Below, piece by piece: positions 1 through 18,600 of a stretch of DNA of 38,490 nucleotides. Under the pieces are notes generated by a model. That model saw nothing but the letters and a program-made list of their open reading frames with translations. It made no database searches and had not been told where the DNA came from. The position numbers and the translations under genes are program-made. How positions within the stretch are numbered: the stretch's first letter is position 1; every line of letters begins with the position of its first letter. The stretch lies in the IMG/VR virus record IMGVR_UViG_3300006919_009379, positions 1-38,490 of that record; one strand, written 5' to 3'. Source of the DNA: a virus.

Positions 1-101
1 TCGTTTATCCACACACAAGGTCTAACTATACCTTTAGAAGTAATGTAGAGTTGATCTCCATTTGCACATTTTGGATTTATATCAATTTGCCACTGTTTCA
101 T
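1..101 (-). CDS. Partial small protein with SPASM-like Cys pattern (3' end outside window)
   Basis: Reading leftward from an ATG at 101, 33 codons stay open to the window edge. The visible peptide begins MKQWQIDINPKC, continues with an ITSKG stretch and then RPC. The spacing Cys12, then 'Y-I-T-S-K-G-x-V-x-P-C', resembles the core of SPASM-type iron-sulfur domains that follow radical SAM domains, where a Cys sits just after a 'G-x-v-x-P' turn. No radical SAM motif is visible in this piece. The gene diverges from the nitroreductase gene and would share the palindromic promoter at 127-140. No clear ribosome binding site precedes the ATG. The family call is tentative because only about 33 residues are available. 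Confidence 0.45.
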   Translation of the reverse strand, partial: MKQWQIDINPKCANGDQLYITSKGIVRPCVWIN

Positions 102-126
102 TATATAAAAAATTATAAGCTTTTCT

Positions 127-134
127 TATAAATA
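127..134 (+). promoter_or_regulatory. T4-type late promoter TATAAATA, rightward
   Basis: A perfect match to the T4 late promoter octamer, recognised in T4 by the phage sigma gp55. If T4 spacing holds (octamer at -13 to -6), transcription would start near 140. The AAGGAG at 140-145 would lie right at the 5' end, 9 bases before the ATG at 155. This would drive the ten-gene pathway operon late, together with virion genes. Confidence 0.6.
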
Positions 135-140
135 TTTATA
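133..140 (-). promoter_or_regulatory. T4-type late promoter TATAAATA, leftward
   Basis: The opposite-strand half of the perfect palindrome TATAAATATTTATA (127-140). It is positioned to transcribe the partial leftward gene with a leader of about 26 bases. Two octamers share their central bases, so two polymerases could not use both at once. Confidence 0.5.
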
Positions 141-154
141 AGGAGTAATGTGTA

Positions 155-1024
155 ATGGAAGATGATAGACGTACAAGAATAATGAATATGTTTTATGATT
201 GGACTCAAGAGAGAGAAATCATGTACAAAATTCAACAATGCCAAAGAAATTGGGATTACTCTAAGTGGGATTCTTCTGTAGATACTTTTCAAGAAATGAT
301 TAACGAGTTGTTATGGACTGCAGAGCAAGCTCCTTCTAAACAACATGAAGGTAATTATGATTTGTATTACACAGCTGATAGAGATGTTATTCAAGAGATT
401 TCTAGATATACATGGGGCAATACAAACAGAAGAGAACCTCCTTCCAACTGGCGCAACGCTCAATCAAATGCAAGCCTATACATTATATGGGTAGCTAAGT
501 ACCCAGAGACAGAAAGAAATTGCAACGCTGATGGTACTATAAAGAAGAATGGTCACCATGAAAGGTGGCTTAATGGTTATGTTAGTATAGGTATTTCTAT
601 AGGGTTAACTATGAGAGCTGCGGCTAAAATGGGTTTAGCTACAGGTTGTAATAAAAATCATAATGATATTAATGGTAATGATTTTTGGGGCAAACGTTTA
701 GGTATTATGGATGAGATTAAAGCAGGTACTAAAAAAATTACATATGGTTTGGGAGTAGGTTTCCCTCAAGAAGGTAGACCAAGATGGGAACAAGATGAAA
801 CAGAAATTATGATTGGCGCATCTAACGGAAGTAAAATTACTTTAAATGATCAAACTAATCATCCTAGAACAGGTCACCCAATGCGTAAAGCAAAGATAGT
901 TGATATTAGGACTACAGATAAAGCTGTAGACCCGTATGGTGTTACTCACATGATTCCTGATATGTCAAAAGCTGCAGTGAATTCTTTTCAACCCAAAGGT
1001 ATAAAAATTATAGAAATTATATGA
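155..1024 (+). CDS. Nitroreductase-like flavoprotein 1
   Basis: This 289-residue protein has the layout of the FMN-dependent nitroreductase fold. An N-terminal helix leads to 'LLWTAEQAPSK' (residues 52-62), matching the usual 'A-P-S-x-x' FMN-binding start. A long helix with 'GISIGLTMRAAAKMGLATG' (about 149-167) matches the family's dimer and FMN helix. A 'GVGFP' turn (about 208-212) matches the usual 'G-x-P' loop. Such enzymes use NAD(P)H to reduce nitro, quinone, enone or similar groups; the substrate here is unknown. AAGGAG at 140-145 supports the start at 155. It is the first gene of the operon and ends with an overlap into the next gene. Two further nitroreductase-like genes follow downstream. 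Confidence in the fold is good and in activity low. Confidence 0.7.
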   Translation: MEDDRRTRIMNMFYDWTQEREIMYKIQQCQRNWDYSKWDSSVDTFQEMINELLWTAEQAPSKQHEGNYDLYYTADRDVIQEISRYTWGNTNRREPPSNWRNAQSNASLYIIWVAKYPETERNCNADGTIKKNGHHERWLNGYVSIGISIGLTMRAAAKMGLATGCNKNHNDINGNDFWGKRLGIMDEIKAGTKKITYGLGVGFPQEGRPRWEQDETEIMIGASNGSKITLNDQTNHPRTGHPMRKAKIVDIRTTDKAVDPYGVTHMIPDMSKAAVNSFQPKGIKIIEII

Positions 1025-1845
1025 TAAACATTGTGTGTACAAGTAAGCCGTGTGATGGTTTACTTTATTATAGTTATGAATATTGTTGTTATTTAAATTC
1101 TATTGGTGTAATTACTGATTTAATAATTATTACTCATCCAAGATTTTTAAAAGAGGACTATTTTGATGCTATTACAAATAAGTATGGTACAATCGAAAAT
1201 GTTATCTTTAACGACTTTACAAGAACATCTCCCACTTTAGTTTTAGGTCGTAGCATGATTACTCTACCTTACATAGATAGAGAATCATATTCTATGGATC
1301 AGTTACTTACTTTACACCTGCTCTTTAAAAATAAAATTATTGCTGTTTATTCTGAAAATCATACTATAGAATATTTAAACGCTTTAAATTATTTTTACCC
1401 AGAAGAAGTTATAGATTTATGTGACTATGATATTTACCCTCACGGTGAAGGAGCGCATTTTGAAAAAAAGATTTGGTTTGATGTTTTTAAACCTATAGAA
1501 AGAAACGAATCTTTTAAGTACCTTTTTAACGGTACAAATAATAATTATTACAAAGCAGCTAGATCGGTTATTAGCAAATATAAAAATCACGGTATTATGA
1601 TTTATGATATAGGAAGTATAGACACTAGATACAATAATATAATAGTACCTGTAGATAATTTAATGGGCATTTTTGATACTTACGTATACACCAAAAAGAA
1701 AATAGATCCTGCTCCTAGATTAATTCAAGAGTGCAAATACTATAATAAAAAAATAATTTTTGAAAACACTAATATTGGAGCTGAAGTTTATATGAAAAGA
1801 GATCTTTCTAATCCTAATGTGGAGCCTATTTTAAATGCAATATAA
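1021..1845 (+). CDS. Putative GT-B-type glycosyltransferase
   Basis: This 274-residue protein resembles short GT-B glycosyltransferases encoded by marine phages. The best evidence is near the C-terminus: 'YVYTKKKIDPAPRLIQE' (about 221-237) and 'KKIIFEN' match the acceptor-independent nucleotide-sugar half of GT-B enzymes, where a 'D-P-x-P-R-x-x-x-E' helix precedes a 'K-x-x-I-x-E-N' strand. The middle has 'YPHGEGAH' (139-146). No transmembrane segment is visible. The ATG overlaps the previous stop (ATGATAA region at 1021-1024). It lies directly upstream of a sugar aminotransferase, which fits transfer of an amino sugar. Donor and acceptor cannot be read from sequence. Confidence 0.5.
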   Translation: MINIVCTSKPCDGLLYYSYEYCCYLNSIGVITDLIIITHPRFLKEDYFDAITNKYGTIENVIFNDFTRTSPTLVLGRSMITLPYIDRESYSMDQLLTLHLLFKNKIIAVYSENHTIEYLNALNYFYPEEVIDLCDYDIYPHGEGAHFEKKIWFDVFKPIERNESFKYLFNGTNNNYYKAARSVISKYKNHGIMIYDIGSIDTRYNNIIVPVDNLMGIFDTYVYTKKKIDPAPRLIQECKYYNKKIIFENTNIGAEVYMKRDLSNPNVEPILNAI

Positions 1846-2890
1846 TGGATGGGATAGAGAATATTTAGAAAATAAAGAATCTTATTATAAACTATTTGAT
1901 AAGATAATGCAACAAGATAATGAAAAAAATGTAGAGTTTTTAGAAAAGAAAGTAGCATTACTAGCAAATAGAGAATATGGAGTAGCTGTTAATAGTGCTA
2001 CTGATGCTTTATATTTTTCTCTTATGAGCTATAACATTGGCACAGGCGATGAAGTCTTAGTAAGTGACTTTTCTTGGATATCTTCTGCCTCAAGTATAAG
2101 TATGACAGGAGCCTCTCCAGTTTTTTGTGATATAGATCTAGAATCATATCATATTTCTTTTGAAGAAATTAAAAAGAAAACTACTAGTAAAACTAAAGCT
2201 ATTATTTACACACATTTATTTGGTAACATGGTTGATGTTAGTCCCATATTAGACTACTGTAAAGATAATAATATAATTTTTATAGAAGATGCAGCACAAT
2301 CATTAGGTTCTAGTTTGAATGGTATTGTAGCAGGGTCAATAGGTGATGTTAGTTCTTTTAGCTTTAATAATAATAAAGTAATAGCTGGTATATCAGGTGG
2401 TGGTATTGTAGTAACAGATAATAAAGACGTCGCCAGCTACATTAAAAAAATTAGAAGGCATGGTAAAGATAAAGATTTTGAAATGTTAGGTTACAATTCA
2501 AAAATGTTTTACTTTAATGCTGCAGTAATAGATTTTAGATTAGATAAACTTAAAGAGTGGCAATTAAAAAGACAAGATATAGCAAGACGTTATAATGACG
2601 AATTTGTTGATTTACCAATCCATATTCAGATAGCTACTAACGGTTTAAATCATAATTATCACAAATATGTAGTAAGGTTTGAAGATGAAACTTCTAGAAA
2701 TTTAGCTAAAGAAAAACTTAGTGCTAGTGTTCATTACGACAGAACTATATCAGAAAATTCTATGTATAAAGGCGCAGGCTGTGTTAATGCTAAACAAGTT
2801 AGCAGAACAGTATTGTCTCTACCTATTCATCCCTGGCTACAAAAAGAAGAAATAGAAAAAATTATTAACGTTATGTGGTTAGTTTCCTAA
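1835..2890 (+). CDS. DegT/DnrJ/EryC1-type PLP aminotransferase
   Basis: This 351-residue protein is a fold-type I PLP aminotransferase of the DegT/DnrJ/EryC1/StrS family, which converts nucleotide-keto-sugars to amino sugars using glutamate or glutamine. 'AVNSATDALYFSL' near residues 50-62 matches the PLP-phosphate binding turn. 'IEDAAQS' contains Asp152, the residue that contacts the pyridine nitrogen. 'SFNNNK' ends in Lys181, the expected Schiff-base lysine, followed by the typical 'G-x-x-G-G-G-x-V-V-T' segment. Length is slightly short for the family (usually 360-400). The start overlaps the previous gene by 11 bases. It strongly suggests that the operon makes a modified sugar. Confidence 0.85.
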   Translation: MQYNGWDREYLENKESYYKLFDKIMQQDNEKNVEFLEKKVALLANREYGVAVNSATDALYFSLMSYNIGTGDEVLVSDFSWISSASSISMTGASPVFCDIDLESYHISFEEIKKKTTSKTKAIIYTHLFGNMVDVSPILDYCKDNNIIFIEDAAQSLGSSLNGIVAGSIGDVSSFSFNNNKVIAGISGGGIVVTDNKDVASYIKKIRRHGKDKDFEMLGYNSKMFYFNAAVIDFRLDKLKEWQLKRQDIARRYNDEFVDLPIHIQIATNGLNHNYHKYVVRFEDETSRNLAKEKLSASVHYDRTISENSMYKGAGCVNAKQVSRTVLSLPIHPWLQKEEIEKIINVMWLVS

Positions 2891-3579
2891 TGAGTTATAC
2901 TTTTAATCTTTTAGAATCTAGACATCATGTTAAAGATTATACAGATGTTATTCCAGATAAAGTCCTATTAGAAGAAGCTTTATGGTGTGCATGGAAAACA
3001 ACTCCTTCGAAGAACAATGCAATGCCTTGGAAAGTATTTGTATATGGTCCAGATAAAATAGAAGAAAAAATTAAAGTATGGAAAATAGTACATGGCAATC
3101 ATATGAGAAGAGAAGTAAAAGCACTTGAAGAAGGAGAAGCTACAACTACAGAAAAAGGAAGAATAAATCCTTTTTATTCTCATATTAAAGATAACCCATA
3201 TCTTATTTGTGTTCATGCACAACCTAGAAATCCTAACAAATATTATGAACAAAAAGTAAGACTAGGAATGTATTTTGATCAAGCATGGGAAAGTCAAGTA
3301 GATAATTTTATAGATACATCTGCTATAGAAGTTGGTATGTTTATACAAAATTTATCTTCCTATTTACTAGAAAAAAATATAGACGTTTCTTATACATCTT
3401 GTTTTTATAGAGATATTAAAAAATGGCATGAGTATGGTTTAACTTACTCTAACTTTAGACCTATAATACTAATGTCATGTGGATATAAAAAAGTATTTCG
3501 AAATGAGATAATTAAAGAATGGGGTAGTGATAAAGAAGATATTAAGCCTAATTATAAAGATATAGTAGAATGGATTTAA
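2890..3579 (+). CDS. Nitroreductase-like flavoprotein 2
   Basis: I start this gene at the ATG at 2890, which shares one base with the previous TAA (TAATG); a GTG at 2875 is in frame but less likely. The product is 229 residues. 'ESRHHVKDYTD' near the N-terminus matches the nitroreductase 'R-R-S-x-R-x-F' start. 'LWCAWKTTPSKNNAMPWKVF' matches the FMN-binding segment, and 'SAIEVGMFIQNLSSYLLEKNID' matches the long central helix. It shares 'AWKTTPSKN' exactly with the next gene, so the two are paralogues. The usual C-terminal Gly-x-Pro loop is replaced by 'SCGYKK'. The fold call is fair and the substrate unknown. Confidence 0.65.
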   Translation: MSYTFNLLESRHHVKDYTDVIPDKVLLEEALWCAWKTTPSKNNAMPWKVFVYGPDKIEEKIKVWKIVHGNHMRREVKALEEGEATTTEKGRINPFYSHIKDNPYLICVHAQPRNPNKYYEQKVRLGMYFDQAWESQVDNFIDTSAIEVGMFIQNLSSYLLEKNIDVSYTSCFYRDIKKWHEYGLTYSNFRPIILMSCGYKKVFRNEIIKEWGSDKEDIKPNYKDIVEWI

Positions 3580-3580
3580 A

Positions 3581-4252
3581 ATGTTTAATGTAATGGATAA
3601 ATGGAGATATGTACATAAATTTAAATCAGGTAAAAATATTAATTATGAAGACTTAAAAGAAGTGTTGTGGCAAGCTTGGAAAACTACCCCGTCTAAAAAC
3701 AGTTTTATGCCTTACAGTATTCACGTTATAGGTCCTAATCAACCTGAACTTAAACAAATAGTCTATAACACAGCAGCTGAAAAAGAATTTTTATCTAACA
3801 AAAGAAATAGTTTACACGAAAATGAATGGCCAGTAAATGTATGTAAAGAAACGATACTTAATGCTGAGTATGTTATTGTATTTACATCTAGACTAGAAGA
3901 TGAACCTAGCTTATGGCAGTTACATTTACATAGAGGTGGTTGTTACATGGATGCTTGGTCTATATATGAAGACAATATTGAAGATTATTTGTCTACTATC
4001 TACGTTGAAGTAGGTTTATTTGCACGAGCAGTTAATGCATTACTTTTAAATAAAGGTATAGATTCTAATTATATTATCTCTTTTGATAAGAAATCAAAAC
4101 AATGGAACAAATTACCGTTTATTAAAATGGAACCTTGTTTAATAATGCCCGTTGGTGTAGGCGAAGTGTTTCGCAGAGATGAAATGAGTGAGTTGCATTC
4201 AGAATGGGATGTTAAACCCGACTTCGAAAGAATTGTTAATTTTCATGTATAA
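3581..4252 (+). CDS. Nitroreductase-like flavoprotein 3
   Basis: This 223-residue protein is a diverged paralogue of its upstream neighbour. It shares 'LWQAWKTTPSKNSFMPYSIHV', the FMN-site segment, and 'VEVGLFARAVNALLLNKGID', the central helix. 'MPVGVGEVFRRDE' near the C-terminus fits the final strand and loop. It lacks the N-terminal 'RR/RH' segment of its neighbour (here 'KWRYVHKF'), so FMN phosphate contacts may differ. The start lies one base after the preceding stop. Nitroreductases act as homodimers or heterodimers; three adjacent paralogues raise the possibility of a mixed assembly or of inactive partners, which is inference. Confidence 0.6.
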   Translation: MFNVMDKWRYVHKFKSGKNINYEDLKEVLWQAWKTTPSKNSFMPYSIHVIGPNQPELKQIVYNTAAEKEFLSNKRNSLHENEWPVNVCKETILNAEYVIVFTSRLEDEPSLWQLHLHRGGCYMDAWSIYEDNIEDYLSTIYVEVGLFARAVNALLLNKGIDSNYIISFDKKSKQWNKLPFIKMEPCLIMPVGVGEVFRRDEMSELHSEWDVKPDFERIVNFHV

Positions 4253-5060
4253 AAATATTCGCCAATTAAACGAAGAAGGATATTTAGGTATTGATTTTTA
4301 TCTATCAAAATCATGTAACAAGTCTTGTCACTATTGCACTGCATGGACTTTAGATATGCGTAATCTAGACGTTGATATGGACTTTACAAGAAAAACTTTA
4401 GAGTACTTATCACCATACAAAGCTAGAATTCAATTGTTGGGAGGTGAACCAGGTTTAATTAAAAACCTAGATGAAGTTTTAAACGAAATAAAAAAGCATA
4501 AGAATTTAGTACCTTCTGTACTTTCTAATTCCTTTGTAAGAAAAAGATACCCTCACATCTTAGAAGATCCAAGTATTATATATCAAGAACATTTAGTGTT
4601 AGATTTTTATGAAGATAAAATAGAAAAGTTGGGTAACTTTAACTTCTTTGAAGAGAATGAAAATAATAATTATAATGTTATTATTATGACACCAAATTAT
4701 TTTAAGTATAGAATAAATCATGACCTTTCTATTTTAGACCATACTAACACTCAGTTTAAGCAGTTTAATTCAAGAGCGCCTGATTATAATTTTATAGATC
4801 AAGCGCCTGAATTTGATAGAAGAATATGTGCAGCGTTTCCAAAAGTACCTGTAGTAGATTTTGAATTACAAAAAATTAGACATTGTAGTAAAAAAGTTAT
4901 TAATGGTTCGCGACAGTTTGAGGTTACAAAAGAAAATATAGATAAAATGATGAACTTTGAATTGTTTGAGTTTGAAGAATATTGTAAGAAATGTACAGAG
5001 CACATTGAAAAAAGATCTCAAGATCATATACTTAATGTAATGGCAGCGGGTAATGTTTAG
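4245..5060 (+). CDS. Radical SAM protein
   Basis: Reading from the ATG at 4245 gives 271 residues and an 8-base overlap with the previous gene (ATGTATAA), in the style of this operon; an ATG at 4188 is possible but would overlap by 65 bases. 'SKSCNKSCHYCTAW' places Cys24, Cys28 and Cys31 in the radical SAM Cx3Cx2C motif that binds the catalytic 4Fe-4S cluster. 'LLGGEPGL' matches the SAM-binding 'GGE' motif. A C-terminal 'YCKKC' and an earlier 'RHCSKK' could bind an auxiliary cluster, as in SPASM or Twitch domains. Radical SAM enzymes open difficult C-H or C-N bonds; with aminotransferase and nitroreductase neighbours it may tailor a sugar or small molecule. The substrate is unknown. Confidence 0.8.
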   Translation: MYKNIRQLNEEGYLGIDFYLSKSCNKSCHYCTAWTLDMRNLDVDMDFTRKTLEYLSPYKARIQLLGGEPGLIKNLDEVLNEIKKHKNLVPSVLSNSFVRKRYPHILEDPSIIYQEHLVLDFYEDKIEKLGNFNFFEENENNNYNVIIMTPNYFKYRINHDLSILDHTNTQFKQFNSRAPDYNFIDQAPEFDRRICAAFPKVPVVDFELQKIRHCSKKVINGSRQFEVTKENIDKMMNFELFEFEEYCKKCTEHIEKRSQDHILNVMAAGNV

Positions 5061-6429
5061 TGTAGCATTAGGTCCTCATGACCACAATACATATGACGGT
5101 GTCTTTCATAACCAATTAGAAAGACATAATAGAATAAAACATAGCTTTGGTCAGACAAAATACTTTTACGATAAGTATTTTAAGCCAGAAGAACATGATA
5201 TGTTTTTGTTTACTACTACCGTTGGTGGTATTGAACAGTCAAATTTTAATCATAAAGCTCTATCTTTTAAACCTAATCACTTATGGGATTATTGGTTAGA
5301 AGGTAATACATATTATATAGATCACCATCAATCTCATGCAGCTTATGCTTTTTTAAGTTCTGGTTTTTTAGAATCAGATATACTTGCTATTGATGGCAGA
5401 GGGTTGAACTACAATTGTATATTCATTGATAAAGATGGAAAAATTACTGATCTGTCAGATAAAATTAAAATAGGTTTACAATGGAATCATTTTTCTAAAT
5501 TATTAGGTTTTAGTGATCTAGGAGCTGGTAAGCTTATGGGGTTATCAGCTTATGGTGAATATAATATTGCAGTACACCTTGCTTTAGAAAATATGCAATA
5601 CGATTTTATTATGAATTCTAAAAAAGAAGACATAGCTTATACATTACAGCAGCACACTTTAGAACTAATAGAAAGATATGTACACACTTTAAAAACTAGT
5701 GATAATATATGCATAGCTGGTGGTGTTGCTTACAATGGTTATATGAACGAAGAATTTACTAAACTATATAAAAACGTACATGTTCCTCCAGCTGTAGGTG
5801 ATGAAGGACAATCTATTGGTACATATATGCATGCAGATTTTACACTGAATAAAAACATTCACATACCTAACGTTTACAGTGGTAAAGAATATAGTTATGA
5901 AGGTAATAATTTAGATTTATCTTTTATTGCTAAATCTATTTCAAAAGGTAAAATTGTAGGGTGGTTTCAAGGTAAGTCTGAAAGTGGTAACAGAGCTTTA
6001 GGTAATAGAAGCATACTAGCTGATCCAAGAAACTCAAACATTAAAAATATTATTAATAGTACAATTAAGAAAAGAGAAGACTTTAGACCTTTTGCTCCTT
6101 CAGTATTAGAAGAAAATTATAAAGAGTATTTTGATACTAATCAACCTAGCCCTTATATGTCTCGTATTGTACCAGTTAAGTCTAAATTAATTCCAGGTGT
6201 AACCCATATTGATAATACAGCTCGTATTCAAACAGTTACTAAAAATCAAAACGAAAAATATTTTAATTTAATAAAAGAGTTTGCTAAAGTAACAAATATT
6301 CCTATGTTGCTTAATACAAGTTTTAACTGTCAAGAACCTATAGTAGAAACACCAGAAGAAGCAATAAACACTTTTAATAATACAGCTTTAGATATTCTAG
6401 TTATTAATAATAAAATGATAGTAAAATGA
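5053..6429 (+). CDS. NodU/CmcH/TobZ-family carbamoyltransferase
   Basis: This 458-residue protein carries the signature blocks of O-carbamoyltransferases, which transfer a carbamoyl group from carbamoyl phosphate through carbamoyl-adenylate to a hydroxyl. 'HHQSHAAYAF' (91-100) supplies the metal-binding histidines of the Kae1-like domain, followed by 'LAIDGRG', 'GKLMGLSAYG', 'GGVAYNGYMN' (about 223-232) and a 'VGDEGQSIG' block. The C-terminal domain begins near 'GNRALGNRSILADPR' (about 312-326), followed by 'REDFRPFAPSVLEE' and 'LLNTSFN'. It is shorter than TobZ or NodU (about 550-600). Known acceptors include sugars, antibiotics and, in some phages, hydroxymethylated cytosine in DNA. Here a glycan is the simplest acceptor given the neighbours. 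It overlaps the previous gene by 8 bases. Confidence 0.9.
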   Translation: MFSVALGPHDHNTYDGVFHNQLERHNRIKHSFGQTKYFYDKYFKPEEHDMFLFTTTVGGIEQSNFNHKALSFKPNHLWDYWLEGNTYYIDHHQSHAAYAFLSSGFLESDILAIDGRGLNYNCIFIDKDGKITDLSDKIKIGLQWNHFSKLLGFSDLGAGKLMGLSAYGEYNIAVHLALENMQYDFIMNSKKEDIAYTLQQHTLELIERYVHTLKTSDNICIAGGVAYNGYMNEEFTKLYKNVHVPPAVGDEGQSIGTYMHADFTLNKNIHIPNVYSGKEYSYEGNNLDLSFIAKSISKGKIVGWFQGKSESGNRALGNRSILADPRNSNIKNIINSTIKKREDFRPFAPSVLEENYKEYFDTNQPSPYMSRIVPVKSKLIPGVTHIDNTARIQTVTKNQNEKYFNLIKEFAKVTNIPMLLNTSFNCQEPIVETPEEAINTFNNTALDILVINNKMIVK

Positions 6430-7139
6430 TTAACATAGTATGTGTAAAATGGGGTGATAAATTTCACAATGATCATGTTAATAGATTATATGACATGGTT
6501 AAGAAAAATTTTACTTTAAAATACAACTTTATATGTTTTACTGATAACGCTAATGATCTAAACAGAAATATAATTATTGAACCTCTATTAGGAAACGAAT
6601 TAGATAAATGGTGGTGGAAGTTATTTTTATTTAAAAACCCAACTAATATTCCTACAATTTATTTTGATTTAGATGTAGTAATACAAAACAACTTTGATCA
6701 CTTTGTTTTTTATGCTAAGAAAGATATTATTACAACAATAGATTGTATATGGAAGCCTCATAAAAGAAATATGAAACCTGAACCTCCTAATTATGATATG
6801 AGCTTAAATTCTTCTATTATGATATGGAAAGGAGATTTATTTAATGTGTGGTGGCATTTTTATTCCGACAGTAATTATTATATGTTAAAATATAAAGGTA
6901 TAGATTCTTATCTTTACTTTAATCATTATGATAAGATAGATTGGTTACCTTCTAAAGAAGTTTATTCTAGAAAATATGGTATAGATGAATATAATTATTA
7001 CATAGATGGTCAAGATTTTAAAGATTTTTTCTATAGTGACTCTCACACTGTTTGCATTTTTAACGGATGGAACAAACCTACTAAATGGACAGTTTTAGAT
7101 AACAAAGGCTATGAAGGTTATGAAAAGTATTGGGATTAA
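6426..7139 (+). CDS. GT-A glycosyltransferase with DLD motif
   Basis: This 237-residue protein starts 'MINIVCVKWGDKF', a strand-turn common to phage and bacterial GT-A glycosyltransferases. It has 'ICFTDN' (about 36-41) and the nucleotide-sugar and metal-binding DxD motif as 'YFDLDVVI' (DLD at 81-83), preceded by 'WWWKLFLF'. 'SLNSSIMIWKGD' further on matches the acceptor-side strand. No signal peptide or membrane helix is visible, so it should act in the cytoplasm. Start and previous stop overlap as ATGA. It is one of two DxD glycosyltransferases in the operon; they are only distantly alike, suggesting successive sugar additions or different acceptors. Confidence 0.75.
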   Translation: MINIVCVKWGDKFHNDHVNRLYDMVKKNFTLKYNFICFTDNANDLNRNIIIEPLLGNELDKWWWKLFLFKNPTNIPTIYFDLDVVIQNNFDHFVFYAKKDIITTIDCIWKPHKRNMKPEPPNYDMSLNSSIMIWKGDLFNVWWHFYSDSNYYMLKYKGIDSYLYFNHYDKIDWLPSKEVYSRKYGIDEYNYYIDGQDFKDFFYSDSHTVCIFNGWNKPTKWTVLDNKGYEGYEKYWD

Positions 7140-7749
7140 AGTCTTCCGTAATATGTTGGAAGAAGGTAGAAATAATTACGATTTATTAGATTCACTTAGC
7201 CCTAACCAATTTAATGCTAAGCTTGCTTTAGTTGACAATATAAAAAAACTTAATATACTAACTAAAGAATCTAAGATTGTTATTTTTGGCTCTTGGTATG
7301 GTAGTATACTAGTTCCGGCTTTTTATAAAGACGTTAAAAAAATTATTTTAGTTGATATGGATAGTAAAGTTATTGATATAGCTAAGAATAGATTATTTAA
7401 CCATCTAACTAATATAGAGTACTTTGTATCAGATATATTTGAAGGGTTTAAAGATCAATACTTAGACACAGATCTTTTTATAAACACTTCATGTGAGCAT
7501 ATGCTTCCTATGAAAGAATGGGGCCCTTGGCCAAAATATGCTAACCCTTGGTGGGGTAGAGTTTCACCTAGTTACTTTGCTTTTCAATCAAACGATATGT
7601 TTGATATACCCACTCATATCAATTGTGTACATACTATAGAACAGTTTAAAAGCCAACTACCTTTAAATGCTTCTGTAATTCATGAAGAAGAAATAGAAGA
7701 TACTAGAGGGGTTAGATTTACACTTATAGGTAAGTTATGCGAAGAGTAA
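7111..7749 (+). CDS. Class I SAM-dependent methyltransferase-like protein
   Basis: This 212-residue protein has a Rossmann-type methyltransferase core. 'KIVIFGSWYGS' (55-65) is the glycine-containing SAM loop, 'IILVDMDSKVIDIAK' (78-92) gives the acidic residue (Asp82) expected to bind the SAM ribose, and 'NTSCEHM' lies after the fourth strand. The SAM loop 'G-S-W-Y-G' differs from the standard 'G-x-G-x-G'. The ATG at 7111 overlaps the preceding gene by 29 bases; in-frame ATGs at 7120 and 7153 are alternatives, and none has a strong ribosome binding site. In context it may methylate a sugar hydroxyl or amino group. The target is unknown. Confidence 0.6.
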   Translation: MKVMKSIGIKVFRNMLEEGRNNYDLLDSLSPNQFNAKLALVDNIKKLNILTKESKIVIFGSWYGSILVPAFYKDVKKIILVDMDSKVIDIAKNRLFNHLTNIEYFVSDIFEGFKDQYLDTDLFINTSCEHMLPMKEWGPWPKYANPWWGRVSPSYFAFQSNDMFDIPTHINCVHTIEQFKSQLPLNASVIHEEEIEDTRGVRFTLIGKLCEE

Positions 7750-8567
7750 TATTTAGCCTATACATAGACATACCTAAAGAAAATTTAGTATCTCATTTTG
7801 AAAGTAAAAATAAGTTTGAAAAAAATTATGAGTGGCTGTTTAGTAAAAAATTTACATACGCAAAAAAATTAGGAATAGATTTTAGATTTTTCTCTTATGA
7901 TGAAAAATATGAAAATTATTTAAAAGAATTTAAACAGAGTTTTCCTCAAGTTCCAGAATATAATATTGTTAATTTCTATAAAATTTTTTTAATGTATGAA
8001 TTATCAAAAGAATATGATGAGATACTTTATTTAGATTTTGATGTAGTACCTTTAACTAATAAAAATTTTTTTAATGAATGGAATTTAGAAAATGGAATAG
8101 TTATTTTTTGTCCTACGGAAAGAATAGATAAAAAAGTAAATGAGTTAGATACTTTAAAATTAAACTACTCGCCTAGATCTCCTTTAGCTAAGTTTTGGAC
8201 TACTAAGTGTTTGTTAATGGAAAACAATATTAAAGCAGAGCCGCAAGTCTTTAATACTGGGATTATTGGAATTAATAAAAAACATTTATTAAAATTAAAC
8301 TATTTTGAAAATTTTTCTGATATACTTAACACAATATCTAATTTAATGAATGATGATTTTTACCCAAATAGTATTAGAAAACTTTTTAGTCATAATAATG
8401 AAGCTATATGGGCTTATAATACTATTGCTAAAAAAGTAAAATGGCAAGAGATAGGACCAAGCTGGCATCATTTCTTAGATAAATGGGACTATATACCTAA
8501 AGGTACTAATTTAGTACATTGTATTAATAAAAATTTTGAATATGTAAAAGAATGGTGCTCTAGGTAA
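7737..8567 (+). CDS. GT-A glycosyltransferase with DFD motif
   Basis: This 276-residue protein has a nucleotide-binding N-terminus ('RRVIFSLYID'), the DxD motif as 'ILYLDFDVVP' (DFD at 100-102), and 'QVFNTGIIGINKKHL' (about 170-184), the usual block following the donor site in GT-A enzymes. 'EAIWAYN' and 'WHHF' near the C-terminus may supply the catalytic base and a metal ligand. It overlaps the previous gene by 13 bases and is the last gene of the rightward operon. Its stop lies inside the end of the convergent leftward gene. It was probably transferred with, and works with, the other sugar genes. Confidence 0.75.
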   Translation: MRRVIFSLYIDIPKENLVSHFESKNKFEKNYEWLFSKKFTYAKKLGIDFRFFSYDEKYENYLKEFKQSFPQVPEYNIVNFYKIFLMYELSKEYDEILYLDFDVVPLTNKNFFNEWNLENGIVIFCPTERIDKKVNELDTLKLNYSPRSPLAKFWTTKCLLMENNIKAEPQVFNTGIIGINKKHLLKLNYFENFSDILNTISNLMNDDFYPNSIRKLFSHNNEAIWAYNTIAKKVKWQEIGPSWHHFLDKWDYIPKGTNLVHCINKNFEYVKEWCSR

Positions 8568-9060
8568 TATTACCTCTATCTACAATGTCCATAGCCACTC
8601 TTGTAGCATCACATATTGTAGTAGTTTTTCTTAGCTTAGCTTTCAATTCTTTTTTATCAGAATTTTTAATAGGCTCTGATTCAAAAAGAGCAAGTTTATA
8701 CATAAACAATCTTTCAATATCAGAGTCGTCTCCAAACAAAATATTATCTACAAAAACTTTATAAAATCTGCTATTGATAGAATCTACATCATAAATGAGA
8801 CCTCTCTTTTTAGCTATTTCAATAACGTCTTTTTCGAAAATAGTATTCTGTTCTCTTATATATTTGTAAGTTGTTTCATGTAATTCATCTTCTGACATAT
8901 GAGACAAAAGTCTATTCCAAGCTGCATCACCTTCTTTAGCTTCAACTACTTCAATTTGAAATACTCCGCTTTTGTCTAGCCATTCTACTTGTGCAATACT
9001 TCTTTCGTTATTAATAAAATATGCAGTAATAAATTCAAATTCATCGTATTCTTTTATCAT
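8560..9060 (-). CDS. Conserved T4-like marine phage protein of unknown function
   Basis: This 166-residue protein resembles a family I know only as hypothetical proteins of T4-like cyanophages and related marine phages. Recognisable blocks are 'EFEFITAYF' at the N-terminus, 'WNRLLSHMSEDELHE' in the middle, 'FEKDVIEIAKKRGLIYD' and 'LKAKLRKTTT' at the C-terminus. It is mostly helical and charged, without membrane segments or enzyme motifs. GAGG precedes the start. It is the last gene of the leftward structural block and carries one Asp-Ser-Asp tripeptide. Position suggests a virion or assembly role, but no function is established. Confidence 0.6.
   Translation of the reverse strand: MIKEYDEFEFITAYFINNERSIAQVEWLDKSGVFQIEVVEAKEGDAAWNRLLSHMSEDELHETTYKYIREQNTIFEKDVIEIAKKRGLIYDVDSINSRFYKVFVDNILFGDDSDIERLFMYKLALFESEPIKNSDKKELKAKLRKTTTICDATRVAMDIVDRGNIT
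8562..8575. repeat. 14-base perfect palindrome at convergent gene ends
   Basis: AGGTAATATTACCT is its own reverse complement and spans the overlapping stop codons of the two convergent genes. As RNA it could fold only a short 5-bp stem with a 4-base loop and has no U-tract, so it is a weak candidate for a bidirectional terminator. Confidence 0.4.
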
Positions 9061-9068
9061 AATTGCCT

Positions 9069-9968
9069 CTAAATAATAGTTTGTCTAAGAAAATATGTAT
9101 CTGCAGTAACAGCAGTACCGTTAGGAAACTCTTGAGCTCTATAATCATCTGTATTAACATATCTAGTCTGATAGTTTCCACCACCGTTTAAAATTGTGTT
9201 AATCATACCTGTACCTTGATTACTTCCTGCTCCATTAATATTGTATGAAACCTGACTACCTGATTGTGTAGCATAATATCTCATAAATTCTTGCAACAAA
9301 GTTTCAAACTGAGCATAAGTATACTCTCTAACACCTGACGTACCATCAATATATAATGGTAGGTTAAATGAACCACCATCAGTTGCTGCAGATCTATACA
9401 CTAAAGAATAGTTACTAATAGTTGTAGGTTGATCTCTTGTTTCATTAATACCACCTGCAGTGTAAGCTCCTACGTTTGCTCTAGTGTCTGTAAATACAAT
9501 ACCTAATCCTGTATTACCTTGTGCAATATAATAAGTACCTTGAGCGTAAGTGTTAGCTATCATAGCTTGAATAGAAGGTAAAACAAAAGTATCAAAAAAA
9601 TCTTGGGTGGACATTTCTCTTAACCCACTTGTACCGTCTCTATAAACAGGCAGTCCTTGAGGAGTAGATGGTGCACTTACAGATTGTATACCCATAGTAA
9701 TTTTTGAGTAGCCTACAGTAACTGTTGAAACGTTTCCAGCTTCAGCTTGAGTAGGAAATCTATCTACTCTAGTGCTTCCGGCACCAGCTTTTTTTCTAGT
9801 ATCGTTTATCGTACCCAAATTACCACCTGAGCTTACTACAGCTAAAGTGATTGACGGATTAAGAGCGTATTGATAGGTTGATTCAAGTTTTATATTATCA
9901 ATGTCTACAGAAGACATCTCTATGAGACCGGATGTACCATCTATTTTAACTGGTGTGCGCACAGTCAT
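9069..9968 (-). CDS. Putative virion structural protein with three DGTSG repeats
   Basis: This 299-residue protein contains three copies of a block reading Asp-Gly-Thr-Ser-Gly, hydrophobic, (Arg/Ile)-Glu, each followed by an acidic helix: near residues 10-23, 110-123 and 208-221. Spacing is about 100 residues, so it appears to be built of three similar domains. The rest is rich in Gly, Ser, Thr and Asn, as in fibre or tail-surface proteins. It lacks any Asp-Ser-(Asp/Glu) tripeptide, unlike the genes just upstream of it in the operon. AAAGGTAG precedes the start. I know similar proteins only as structural or hypothetical proteins of marine T4-like phages. Confidence 0.55.
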   Translation of the reverse strand: MTVRTPVKIDGTSGLIEMSSVDIDNIKLESTYQYALNPSITLAVVSSGGNLGTINDTRKKAGAGSTRVDRFPTQAEAGNVSTVTVGYSKITMGIQSVSAPSTPQGLPVYRDGTSGLREMSTQDFFDTFVLPSIQAMIANTYAQGTYYIAQGNTGLGIVFTDTRANVGAYTAGGINETRDQPTTISNYSLVYRSAATDGGSFNLPLYIDGTSGVREYTYAQFETLLQEFMRYYATQSGSQVSYNINGAGSNQGTGMINTILNGGGNYQTRYVNTDDYRAQEFPNGTAVTADTYFLRQTII

Positions 9969-12634: not shown

Positions 12635-13504
12635 CTAAATTGTACTTAGATCTCTAACGATCTTAACTATATTACCATCAGAATCAGACATATTAAGTAC
12701 GGTAGGACTAAGATTTGAATCATTACTTAATGTAGCATCTGAATCAGGTTGTGTTACATTAGCCCATCCAACCTCTGAGCCTTCAATGGGTTTTAAACCT
12801 CTAGACAATTGATACAATTCAGGTATATTGCCGTCAGAATCTTTAGCTGGCGTGCCTAAAATAACTCTAGAATCATAGATAATACTTGTTGTTACAGCAG
12901 GACCATATAACCATATTTTAGAAGTAAATTCTAAGTTCCATTCAACCATTCTTCTATCACCTACATCACCCGTCCAATCATCTGCCCAGGTAGCTGCAGT
13001 AAGAATAAAAGGCATATCGTATGTATTTGTAGGTAATGGTGTATCACTATCAGCATCTAAAGGAAAATTTCTTACCTTGACTGTATATGCAGGAGTAAAG
13101 AATGGTAAAATTTGCTCCATAATTTGCCAACCATCATTTAAATTTTTTGTAGTTACATACATTGTAAAATCTAAATTGTATGGTGTTGGGGAATGAACTC
13201 TTTGTCTTGGTAGAGATAAACTATCCGGTGTTCTTATAATAGATTGTTTATTAGTTATTTTTCTATCGGTATCATAATTCATAGCAACAATCTCATATGA
13301 GATTCTAGGCAGCAATTTTTCAAACATTTCTTCTTCACGTTTAAATTGCTTTTGTGCTTCTAACCATTTTACTCTTGGGCCATAAGAAATGGGAACAGGA
13401 AGAAATTTTCCGTCTCTTCTTTTTATTACAATATTATTAAACAAGCTGCCAAATACTGCGACAGCCGTCTTAATAGTTTCATTGTAAAAATGTTGACCAA
13501 TCAT
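12635..13504 (-). CDS. gp15: gp15-like tail sheath stabilizer and completion protein
   Basis: This 289-residue protein matches T4 gp15 in order of motifs: 'HFYNETIKTAVAVFGSLFNNI' at the N-terminus, 'VPISYGPRVKWL', 'LPRISYEIVAMNYD', 'PTPYNLDFTMYVTTKN', 'IMEQILPFFTPAYT' and 'DRRMVEWNLEFTSKIWLYGP'. T4 gp15 forms a hexameric ring that caps the tail and joins it to the neck, and has 272 residues. The C-terminal tail after residue 210 is variable and contains three of the four Asp-Ser-Asp tripeptides. Its ATG shares one base with the stop of gp14, in the T4 order 14-15. Confidence 0.88.
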   Translation of the reverse strand: MIGQHFYNETIKTAVAVFGSLFNNIVIKRRDGKFLPVPISYGPRVKWLEAQKQFKREEEMFEKLLPRISYEIVAMNYDTDRKITNKQSIIRTPDSLSLPRQRVHSPTPYNLDFTMYVTTKNLNDGWQIMEQILPFFTPAYTVKVRNFPLDADSDTPLPTNTYDMPFILTAATWADDWTGDVGDRRMVEWNLEFTSKIWLYGPAVTTSIIYDSRVILGTPAKDSDGNIPELYQLSRGLKPIEGSEVGWANVTQPDSDATLSNDSNLSPTVLNMSDSDGNIVKIVRDLSTI

Positions 13505-14553
13505 TAAATATCATCTAAATTATTAATTATCCCAGAGTAACCAAAAGCTTCAGCTGTGTAATCTTTTGTAATTACATCACCTTTATCTCTTAATGGTTCT
13601 CCTTGACTGTCATATTTTGTTTCTTTTTGTGAACGTTCTTCTAAAGCTTTATTATCTGCCCAAGTATCAAAATGATCATCACTGTCATCAGCAATATTGA
13701 GATTCTTAGATTCTGAATCTGTTAATTCTAATCCAGTCTTGGCTCGTGCGATAGGTCCTGTATCTGAATCAATAAGGTTTTTCTGAGTTCCGTCTTTATT
13801 ATACTCAACAACTCTTGGATTAAATTCAAGGTCTTCTCCACTAAGTTCAAATAATCTACATCTTAATTTATATTGGTAGTTATCACCTATTTGGTAAAAC
13901 GCACCATCATGATAAGTAGTTACGCGTAAAATTTCAAACACTTTAGGAATATATTGCTCTTTATTCTGAGCAGATCTACCAAAAGGAATAACAACTAGAT
14001 CGCCTTCTAAAGGTCTTACTCTTTTAAAAGCTTCTGATTCTGTAGGATTGACTGCTGCTAAATCTGAATCCCAATTATCATATAATTCTTCCCATTTAGG
14101 AATAGCAATAGATAAAATAACTTCTTCCCGGAATTCAATTCCGTAAGTAGTCATTACGTCACCTTCACCTTCAAAACCAGCTGCAGCAACTAGCAATACA
14201 TCTGCTTGGAAACCTCTATGAAATCTACTTTCAGGTCTTTCATTCCACACTTCATCTGTATAGGAAGAAGAACGAGGCATATACCTAACAGTAATACCGT
14301 TAATATTAATTGATTCTCTAATCAAGTTTTGAACTAATCTTTGTTCGTTAGTTGAGAAGCGAGAAGAGGCACCGAATTGGTTGATATAACCATCAATGTA
14401 AGTATTTCTAATACCTGAAGAGATGGCATAATCGTCGTTGACTTTTTGGATTGATCTGTTAAGATTGACACCGAAGTCTGAGTCATTATCAGCGTTGTTG
14501 TAATCTGTTGTTGACGCTACTGTAAAGCCAGAATAATTGTTTTTGATTGCCAT
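13504..14553 (-). CDS. gp14: gp14-like neck protein
   Basis: This 349-residue protein resembles T4 gp14 (256 residues), a head-tail neck protein. Shared blocks include 'NLIRESININGITVRYMPR' (T4: 'ESIQMRGVECYYVPR'), 'YGIEFREEVILSI', 'PLEGDLVVIPF' (T4: 'PKEGDLIYFPM'), 'FEILRVTTYHDGAFYQIGDN' and 'YKLRCRLFELSGEDL'. The extra length lies in an acidic C-terminal region with several Asp-Ser-(Asp/Glu) tripeptides. It directly precedes gp15, as in T4. gp14 and gp13 form the neck to which the tail attaches; no gp13 is recognisable in this window. Confidence 0.82.
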   Translation of the reverse strand: MAIKNNYSGFTVASTTDYNNADNDSDFGVNLNRSIQKVNDDYAISSGIRNTYIDGYINQFGASSRFSTNEQRLVQNLIRESININGITVRYMPRSSSYTDEVWNERPESRFHRGFQADVLLVAAAGFEGEGDVMTTYGIEFREEVILSIAIPKWEELYDNWDSDLAAVNPTESEAFKRVRPLEGDLVVIPFGRSAQNKEQYIPKVFEILRVTTYHDGAFYQIGDNYQYKLRCRLFELSGEDLEFNPRVVEYNKDGTQKNLIDSDTGPIARAKTGLELTDSESKNLNIADDSDDHFDTWADNKALEERSQKETKYDSQGEPLRDKGDVITKDYTAEAFGYSGIINNLDDI

Positions 14554-15625: not shown

Positions 15626-18600
15626 CTAAATATCTGCTATAATTCTCAAATCTTTTATACGAGGAATTTGAGCTTCATTGTTGGTTATCATTCTAATTCT
15701 AATCTTAAATGATGTAAATTCAAAAGGAACATTTGCATTTACGGTGTACTCTTTAATATCTGTATCTGAAGAGAATGGACCGTCATTAGCTTCTGTAATA
15801 AATTCTCTAGCTTTAAAGTCTTCCCAAGAAATGTCTTCAAAAGGAGTTTGATCACCTTTAGCTCTTGCTTTGTATGAAAACTCTAACTTAGAACCTGGTT
15901 CCATATCTGCATCAAACTTAATAGTAAATCCGTCAGCAGGTATTTCTAAATCGATTTGTTTTGTACAATAAGCAGAAAATTCTGTTTCTGATTGCACTGC
16001 AGACAAATAAGAAGTATATTCTTGTAAAGTATTATCTGTACTTCCGGAAGTAATAATTCTAGTTGTTAAACCTTCTATATCAGAATCGTTAAGTAAAGTG
16101 CCAGTTAAGTTTCTAAACACTACAGGGTATAAAGAATCGTTATTATTAAACATCGGTGAACTGTATTCACTGAAACTGTCTAAAGTAATTCTAGTTGTTA
16201 AATCGTTAGTGCTAGAATTAAGAAGGTTTCTAACAATATGAGGATCTTCTAGTTCTACATATTCATTAACTGGAATTTCTACTTCTATACCAGGAGTAAC
16301 ATTAGCAATAGAATCGTTTTTAATTTTATTAGAATCTACAACTAAGTTAAGTGAGTTAGTAGTTGCAGAATTAATAAACACTTTCACTTCATCATCTTCT
16401 TCTGTCTTAAAGAACGGTACCTGTTGCACTAAACTATCAAATACAATAGGCTGAGTTGCAAACGTATCAAAAATAGGAACTGGTGGAGTACCTGATGAAG
16501 TAGCTTTAGTGGTTGTTTTAATAAAATAAGTATCTATAGTTGCGTAAAGTACATCATGAACACCGTTTAATTCTGAATCTGGTATTCCATTATAATTGTT
16601 AGGTGTACCAAAAGCATCAAATCCCATAAGTCTTACTTGAGCACCGTTATAATTCATTCCATGATTTGGGTGAAGCACTCTTACATAATTACTATATTCA
16701 AATGTCTCAATAGCTAACCCTCTGTTAAAAGCTCCAATATCTGCTTTGAAAGTTTTTAGGTTAGATAACTCGTTTTTCAAAGTAAGTGTAGATGTAGGTG
16801 GTGAACCATCACCGTTAGTATCAAAGTTAGCTCTGTTAAGTCTAAAAGTCATGTCAGTGTTTTGTTCTGCAGACCATGTTGTTTGATTTTGCGATACAAA
16901 GAAAGAACCAAAATAACCTCCAACGTTAGGTTGTTCATCGTGTACACCAGAACCATCTAACAATTGAGCTCCAATTTCTGCTACAAATACTTCAGTAGCA
17001 TCTGAAGGCGATTTAAGTACTATAGCATATTCTGTTTCACCTTTAAGAGATACTGGTTGTCTAAACTTAAAATTAGTACCATTAGTAGCTGTAGGGGTTT
17101 CTACTTCCATAGATTTATCTAAAACAACCCATCCTGTAGATCCTATAATCTTATTTGGACCTGCAGGATACCCATTTACAGTTTCTCTAATTTCTGCAAT
17201 CATAGTATTCATTTGTGGTCTTTCATCTACATAACATATCCACAAATCGATAGATGTAATAATTGCATTAGGTATAGTTGCTCCAACTTCACCTGCTAGA
17301 ACCTGAGCCGCTGTTGGAGTACCTTTTGTAGGTAATCTAAACAACTGTGCAATTGGATCACCAGGGCTTCCAGGTCCGTCATCTCCTCTACCCCCACCTT
17401 GTGGCTCTGGTGGTCTTGGAGGCGGTAGCGTAATCGTTGATCTTGATCTTACCTGAACTCCTAAATTAAGAGTATCAATTCTTTTGTTATCTGTTTGAGC
17501 AAGAATATCAAAGAAATCTCTATGACCTATTGATTTAAATACAGCGCTTGCAGATGAAGCATTACCATCAACAATAGTATCTTTTAAAGAAACAATTTCT
17601 TCACCTGCTTTAAAAGTTTGATAAGGAACATTAAACGTGCCAGACACAAAACCGTTTTGGTCCGTAGTTACTGAACTATCAATTACTACTTCACCCATTG
17701 TAAGCTGATGTTCTGTATTAGCTTTAAGATTTGCTGCTTCGTACTTAATACCACCGGCAGGGTTTCTCATCCAATAGTCTTGTAAATTTTCAATTACTTC
17801 GGAACCAGTATGAGTTTCAGTAGGCTTAGTACCAGCAATTACTCTAGGCTTACCAAATGTTGTAGTAGTAATTCTACGTCTAGCTTGTCTAGTTGTGGTA
17901 GTAACAGTACGACCACTTTGAGATCTGGTTGTGCTTTGAGCACCAAACCATTCTAATCTAGATGTAGATGAACCACCTGGTGATGCAGTAGTAACTCTCA
18001 AGAACTGGCTAAACGTATCTGAGTCGCCTGAGAACGGTCTAACTCTACCATTAAATTCTGTAAAGTAACTATTTACTTTATCTCTCCAATGATGCTCGCT
18101 AGGAGTAAGAGTCATATCACCAATGTAAATCCAAGTAGCAAAAGGATTAATTCTATGACATCCAGTAGCTTGAGTCATTGCTACTAATTGTTCTTCTGTA
18201 AAATCTTTAATTACAATTCCACGCTGAGTGAAATAATAGTCATTAATATTATCTTTAGAAGCTACTTCCATAGTAATAGGTATACCATCCGTTTGACCTG
18301 GTATAAGTATATTATCTACTACATCAATACTAGCGTTATATTCAGGGTGTGCAGGATCAGCAGAACTGTTAGGATTGTTTTCAGATAAAGAGAAGTCATC
18401 TACAACAAAACCAGACTTAGCTCTTTCATTTATATTATCGTGTAAAGCTTGAGATTCCAATAAAGATAAAGCTACTGATTCTTCTAGCCTATTAATTCTA
18501 TCTTCTATCTTTCCTATATCTCTCATAGTATAACGTTTGTTATCTATAATCTCTAATTCAATTTCGGTTTCTGGATATCTAACTCCACCTGGTATAGTAA

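Follow-up and report, generated by a model that had tools for sequence, protein, structure and literature searches.

The operon and its genetic setting

The window analysed here is the entire virus record IMGVR_UViG_3300006919_009379 of IMG/VR (38,490 bases, GC 32%), in which ten tightly packed open reading frames (ORFs) lie on the + strand at 155-8567 (Table 1). They encode three nitroreductase-like proteins (NTR1, NTR2, and NTR3), a DegT-type aminotransferase, a radical S-adenosylmethionine (SAM) enzyme (rSAM1), a NodU/TobZ-type carbamoyltransferase (CarbT), a methyltransferase (MT), and three glycosyltransferases (GTB, GTa, and GT8). When the homologue-supported starts are used for NTR2 (ATG 2890) and rSAM1 (ATG 4245), the junctions are, in order, overlaps of 4, 11, and 1 bases, a gap of 1 base, and overlaps of 8, 8, 4, 29, and 13 bases, and the arrangement of ten one-strand genes with 1-29-base overlaps or a 1-base gap, reported in an initial annotation made from the sequence alone, holds with these starts. 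No transmembrane segment was detected in the ten proteins by a simple hydropathy test (maximum 19-residue value 1.36), and all of them look soluble.

The window also encodes the T4-like tail proteins gp25, gp6, gp8, a VrlC-like protein, gp14, gp15, tail fibres, a baseplate hub lysozyme, and an endolysin. Because gp6 was closest to those of Methylophilales phage Melnitz (36%) and the Pelagibacter phages Mosig (34%) and HTVC008M (33%), the phage is assigned by sequence to the marine T4-like (Kyanoviridae-type) group. The operon, the fibres, and the fibre-like gene fib9069 all lie in the VrlC/gp14/gp15 region.

Families were assigned with Pfam, PHROG, and NCBIfam profiles, and AlphaFold models were made for NTR1 and GTB. 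Judging from curated profiles, the families of DegT, CarbT, GT8, and NTR2 are settled. DegT, whose closest solved relatives are 7b0d (5e-64) and QdtB (2e-49), carries the pyridoxal phosphate (PLP)-lysine motif SFNNNKV expected of its family. An aminocyclitol chemistry, suggested by the name of the best PDB match (scyllo-inositol transaminase), was not adopted because nucleotide-sugar aminotransferases come next and the name may be automatic. CarbT matched PF16861 (C-domain; 6e-66) and PF02543 (1.5e-19) and conserves HHxxHA and ESGNRALGNRSILADPR (alignment A6), as predicted for a NodU/TobZ enzyme with a Kae1-like domain and a YrdC-like C-domain. The Pfam score of rSAM1 (27.9 bits) is just below the cut-off of 29.5, and its CxxxCxxC motif is present among seven invariant cysteines (C23, C27, C30, C194, C213, C246, and C249; alignment A4). 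GTa matched a phage glycosyltransferase PHROG.

The Pfam nitroreductase match of NTR1 (0.004) is below the cut-off. Its AlphaFold model (28 relatives; predicted local distance difference test, pLDDT, 85) gave 193 PDB matches at E<=0.001, which among the matches listed were nitroreductase/flavin-oxidoreductase folds, and we regard the predicted nitroreductase fold as settled by this model. NTR3 by itself matched no Pfam family; it is 31% identical to NTR2 (E ~1e-25), and a joint NTR2-NTR3 profile found PDB nitroreductases (3.6e-5). NTR1 is placed with the flavin mononucleotide (FMN) nitroreductases by its model, NTR2 by Pfam, and NTR3 solely through its homology to NTR2. No sequence family was found for GTB, and PDB sequence searches with NTR1 and GTB returned nothing usable; the GTB model (pLDDT 92) matched BshA, LanGT2, OGT, and UDP-GlcNAc 2-epimerase with E-values of 1e-4 to 1e-3 and a template modelling (TM) score of ~0.45. 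The family calls of the initial annotation are therefore borne out by profiles, homology, and models, that of GT-B at the level of the fold. Mosig_00083 (16563-17429 of locus L005) is labelled a molybdenum cofactor enzyme in GenBank, yet is a member of this GT-B-like family.

The late promoter that the initial annotation had placed at the head of the operon was found as a perfect TATAAATA box at 127-134 on the + strand. A second box at 140-133 on the - strand overlaps it within the palindrome CTTATAAATATTTATAAG, which is identical in the relative L009. These are the only two occurrences in the 38,490 bases, against 9.4 +/- 3.9 expected in a first-order Markov sequence. The box was found upstream of 16 of 45 cassette heads of relatives, versus 15 of 722 internal cassette genes, and this late promoter is present in the window, in Mosig, and in other cassettes. 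Heads of relatives have either a late box or a sigma70-like promoter, seldom both, and overlapping bidirectional late boxes occur in 5 of 39 of their divergent junctions.

Table 1. Features of the operon and its immediate surroundings in the window.
Feature	Position	Strand	Evidence
NTR1, nitroreductase-fold, phage subfamily, accessory; predicted flavoprotein	155..1024	+	Pfam 0.004; model and fold search; 52 IMG/VR relatives
GTB, GT-B-like glycosyltransferase, core	1021..1845	+	Model pLDDT 92, GT-B fold matches; at least 123 IMG/VR relatives
DegT/DnrJ/EryC1 PLP aminotransferase, catalytic-lysine motif, core	1835..2890	+	PF01041 2.7e-82
NTR2, nitroreductase family, accessory; ATG 2890 preferred over possible GTG 2875	2890..3579	+	PF00881 9e-8
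NTR3, diverged NTR2 paralogue, accessory	3581..4252	+	31% to NTR2; joint profile
rSAM1, radical SAM (CxxxCxxC), C-terminal Cys-rich region twitch/SPASM-like, core	4245..5060	+	PF04055 3e-6
CarbT, NodU/TobZ-type O-carbamoyltransferase, Kae1-like and YrdC-like domains, core	5053..6429	+	PF16861, PF02543
GTa, DxD glycosyltransferase, DLD motif	6426..7139	+	phrog_1962 1.8e-10
MT, SAM-dependent methyltransferase, core	7111..7749	+	NF011529 1.5e-5; alignment A5
GT8-family glycosyltransferase, DFD motif, core	7737..8567	+	PF01501 4.5e-8
flank166, conserved protein, ends convergently against operon in many relatives	8560..9060	-	
fib9069, conserved fibre-like structural protein; candidate acceptor or acceptor's neighbour	9069..9968	-	At least 372 viral relatives
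SPASM-like ORF start (MKQWQIDINPKCANGDQLYITSKGIVRPCVWIN), cut by contig end	1..101	-	By-eye likeness to relatives' stand-alone SPASM ORFs
Palindromic late-promoter element CTTATAAATATTTATAAG between two divergent genes	120..141	.	Sequence; count versus background

A six-gene core with exchangeable neighbours

Many ocean phages have the cassette, among them dozens of IMG/VR contigs and the cultured Pelagibacter phage Mosig. NTR1, GTB, rSAM1, flank166, and fib9069 each matched one virus, Mosig, among 50,697 phage records, and their homologues there, which for flank166 and fib9069 are Mosig_00095 and Mosig_00097, all lie within one region; NTR2 and NTR3 likewise matched Mosig alone. In the bacterial genomes searched, which the initial annotation had proposed as another place to look, the pathway genes sought were absent apart from phage-like contigs: no rSAM1 orthologue was found in 297 genomes of the order of a Pelagibacter metagenome-assembled genome (MAG) beyond one phage contig in that bin, GTB was absent from 398 genomes of the phylum beyond the same contig, NTR1 was absent from 297 genomes in a search without a positive control, and a GTDB pattern scan gave three matches, all phage-contig-like. 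A host origin of the pathway was rejected on these searches.

The consensus order in relatives is GTB, [rSAM2, SPASM], SGNH, DegT, rSAM1, CarbT, NTR2, MT, GT8, GTa, NTR1, GTa, with flank166, an epimerase, fib9069, and VrlC convergent to it. The genes additional to those of the window are SGNH proteins, split radical SAM/SPASM pairs, and a nearby nicotinamide adenine dinucleotide (NAD)-dependent sugar epimerase (epimerase/dehydratase), which adjoins flank166 in many relatives and lies inside the cassette in L012.

Gene order was compared in 32 complete cassettes, representing 20 distinct orders, that GTB or NTR1 queries had retrieved; the presence counts of these two are biased because both were search queries, while the other core genes were not. 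GTB, DegT, rSAM1, CarbT, MT, and GT8 were present in 18-20 of the 20 orders (the five non-query genes in 18-19), their relative order was constant in every one, and 93% of 357 junctions overlapped. Across contigs, the pairwise divergence of one core gene correlated with that of another, with a Mantel rho of 0.45-0.81 (p=0.001) in the main pairs tested. NTR1 did not follow the core, with rho -0.09 to 0.22 and p 0.05-0.88 at comparable ranges of identity, and is therefore a swappable tailoring enzyme. Of the 20 orders, 11 include NTR1 and 15 include NTR2. In L009, ~85-96% identical to the window in core genes and NTR1, a radical SAM/SPASM pair has taken the place of NTR2, an example of accessory exchange.

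The six core genes are thus a coherent co-inherited unit, and the nitroreductases, split radical SAM pairs, and epimerase are exchangeable modules. The initial annotation had drawn attention to the combination with three nitroreductases, but these are a variable accessory feature and not the signature of the operon, with NTR1 missing from 9 and NTR2 from 5 of the 20 orders. It had also held that independent variation of neighbouring genes among related phages would argue against one pathway; such variation applies to NTR1 and not to the core.

A separate adjacent SPASM-only ORF (~121 aa) stands beside 70 of 85 rSAM2 core ORFs, in either order, and three contigs have natural rSAM2/SPASM fusions. 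The ORF at the left edge of the window (1-101), a fragment too short for this purpose, gave no family match. When leftward extension was attempted with an exact 30-base search, the only matches were two contigs, both breaking at the same base as the window; this identical end base inside the SPASM-like ORF in the window, L001, and L009 (three contigs, two metagenomes) suggests that assembly broke off at a repeat or at a variable site.

A proposed glycan pathway and its rivals

We infer, at a probability of about 0.48, that the operon encodes a pathway for building and attaching a modified amino-sugar glycan, probably onto a tail-fibre or other virion protein. As for the chemistry and timing, which we infer as well, a nucleotide-sugar or glycan intermediate would be aminated by DegT, altered through radical SAM chemistry, and then O-carbamoylated and methylated. 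Nitroreductase-fold enzymes, split radical SAM/SPASM pairs, and SGNH proteins may add further changes in some phages. GT-B-like, GT8, and GTa enzymes would assemble the resulting short glycan and attach it, the likeliest target being a protein of the host-recognition module encoded alongside (fib9069, flank166, or an adjacent fibre), where it may alter receptor binding or protect the virion. Because the core steps are fixed and accessory enzymes are exchanged, each phage would carry a different sugar. The earlier reading as a phage sugar-tailoring pathway thus gains from the co-inherited, colinear core and the epimerase in relatives, while its stress on nitroreductases does not stand and its "small molecule" part is without support. 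A fuller version, in which dedicated virion glycosylation makes a carbamoylated, radical-SAM- and flavin-modified amino sugar unknown in biology, with a fixed six-enzyme core, exchangeable tailoring enzymes, and a different fibre sugar per phage, seems to us rather unlikely.

The fibre linkage was examined with a fib9069 search, which does not select for the cassette; since the best 80 of at least 372 matches were taken, the sample leans to closer relatives. GT8/GTa genes were beside fib9069 in 61 of the 65 loci having >=2.5 kb downstream. The two loci lacking flank166 (L197 and L192) have no glycosyltransferases alongside; the neck genes follow at once, in what may be an ancestral or a reduced arrangement. 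The island also contains a second, divergent operon (L005 9702-15955; on the left side of many loci), which encodes an Asp/Arg hydroxylase-like protein, a fatty acid desaturase, TauD, an acetyltransferase, an aminotransferase, and an FMN reductase. A second cluster in Mosig (124832-130666 = L157 34833-40667), close to ribonucleotide reductase, encodes glycosyltransferases, a sulfotransferase, and methyltransferases.

Several points weigh against virion glycosylation as we propose it. At ~19 of 45 cassette heads a sigma70-like promoter replaces the late box, as would be expected of genes expressed early or midway through infection and not of purely structural ones. The CarbT-GT8 correlation was low (rho 0.20) in the subset selected for the epimerase, GTB is GT-B-like at the fold level alone, and the profile match of MT is weak. 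Adjacency to fibres may merely reflect a hypervariable region collecting host-interaction genes.

It is quite possible that what this sugar pathway decorates is the host surface, at the lipopolysaccharide core or O-chain, so that re-adsorption is prevented and competing phages are kept from superinfecting the cell, and we consider this a close rival of the virion target. Soluble glycosyltransferases are able to act on cytoplasmic lipopolysaccharide core, and the sigma70-like heads suggest pre-late expression. This reading was proposed in PMC7029224 for the glycosyltransferases of the pelagimyophage host recognition region, on the grounds of their GT8 families and of how rarely SAR11 has restriction systems at all. 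In favour of a virion target, the cassette is almost always paired with flank166 and a single fibre-like protein, the late promoter is present in the window, in Mosig, and elsewhere, and the operon has no membrane protein or flippase gene: with no transmembrane segments, the ten proteins include neither the flippase nor the membrane glucosyltransferase of gtrABC-type O-antigen conversion.

Phage glycosyltransferases can also act on DNA, as in T4, and base hypermodification can involve aminotransferases and carbamoyltransferases, so that glycosylated or carbamoylated bases protecting phage DNA have to be considered. We think this hardly likely, as the cassette sits in the structural region, the annotation of Mosig up to the last 1.5 kb of its record lists no pyrimidine hydroxymethylase (the window being a partial genome), and restriction systems are rare in SAR11 hosts according to PMC7029224. 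Maturation of a phage peptide or protein side chain by radical SAM/SPASM and flavin enzymes, in the manner of ribosomally synthesised and post-translationally modified peptides and with the sugar enzymes as extra tailoring, could account for the resemblance of rSAM2 to SPASM maturases (TIGR04317, 3e-8), for a nitroreductase fold that includes peptide oxidases such as AlbA, and for the Asp-hydroxylase-like genes nearby. It is improbable, however, in that no conserved small precursor ORF was seen (ORFs of ~100 aa are SPASM domains or, in other relatives, a DegT-fused extension) and DegT, CarbT, and the glycosyltransferases belong to sugar families.

The N-terminal half of rSAM1 matched prokaryotic viperin models (6e-10; NCBIfam 6e-8), which would suit a defence or counter-defence locus making chain-terminating nucleotides. 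The match is confined to the generic radical SAM core, its 32 bits compare with a curated full-length cut-off of 180, rSAM1 has four extra invariant C-terminal cysteines, and no further defence gene was found bar one generic methyltransferase match; we rejected rSAM1 as a viperin on score and architecture, and such a locus is scarcely credible. Unrelated cargo gathered in a hypervariable island would explain the separate histories of NTR1 and the epimerase and the swap of NTR2 in L009, but the constant order and co-inheritance of the six core genes already disfavour it and make it very unlikely.

Relation to known systems

The hosts of SAR11 T4-like phages are among the most numerous cells on Earth, and most of the host recognition region of these phages has yet to be explained. 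With one carrier of the conserved pathway in culture, the question of fibre or host decoration can be put to the test. The core/accessory pattern suggests that the sugar chemistry is diversified as the fibres are, and in the split radical SAM/SPASM pairs the enzyme architecture is unusual.

Deoxyaminosugar and nodulation-factor pathways combine DegT and NodU/TobZ-type carbamoyltransferases with glycosyltransferases and methyltransferases. The operon shares their logic (aminate, carbamoylate, methylate, and transfer), but the window lacks the early nucleoside diphosphate-sugar steps, adds radical SAM and nitroreductase-fold enzymes, and is phage-borne. The Nol-like carbamoyltransferases of cyanophages and HTVC008M (138 phage records) belong to the family of CarbT, with ~30-32% identity among the matches listed; in three inspected records, the gene was either solitary, amid capsid or nucleotide genes, or part of a different small cluster, and the rest of the core was missing.

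The pelagimyophage host recognition cluster was described in the main text of PMC7029224 as hypervariable, lying among tail fibres between VrlC and gp14, with glycosyltransferases and radical SAM cassettes; nitroreductase, carbamoyltransferase, and aminotransferase are unmentioned there, and no description of a conserved pathway was found. The window differs from this published placement in that the neck genes gp14 and gp15 (12635-14553) lie between VrlC and the fibres. With these genes on the VrlC side, the island lies past the neck genes, and the contig does not reach its far border.

The closest known system is that of Mosig EXVC030M (MT647606), in which Mosig_00082-00094 encode, as in the window, nitroreductases, GTB, radical SAM, DegT, carbamoyltransferase, methyltransferase, GT8, and GTa on the + strand, adjoining flank166, a fibre gene, and VrlC. 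It differs by protein identities of 50-60%, an extra split radical SAM/SPASM pair, an SGNH protein, an epimerase, and another order of accessory genes, and is annotated gene by gene only. The literature on the gene combination yielded nothing relevant beyond PMC7029224 and no description of a conserved pathway. The initial annotation had not recognised the combination from any described phage; this stands as regards the pathway but not its parts, given the gene-by-gene annotation of Mosig and the cassettes reported in the main text of PMC7029224. The system is therefore new as a described conserved pathway and ordinary as a kind, namely phage glycan-modification genes.

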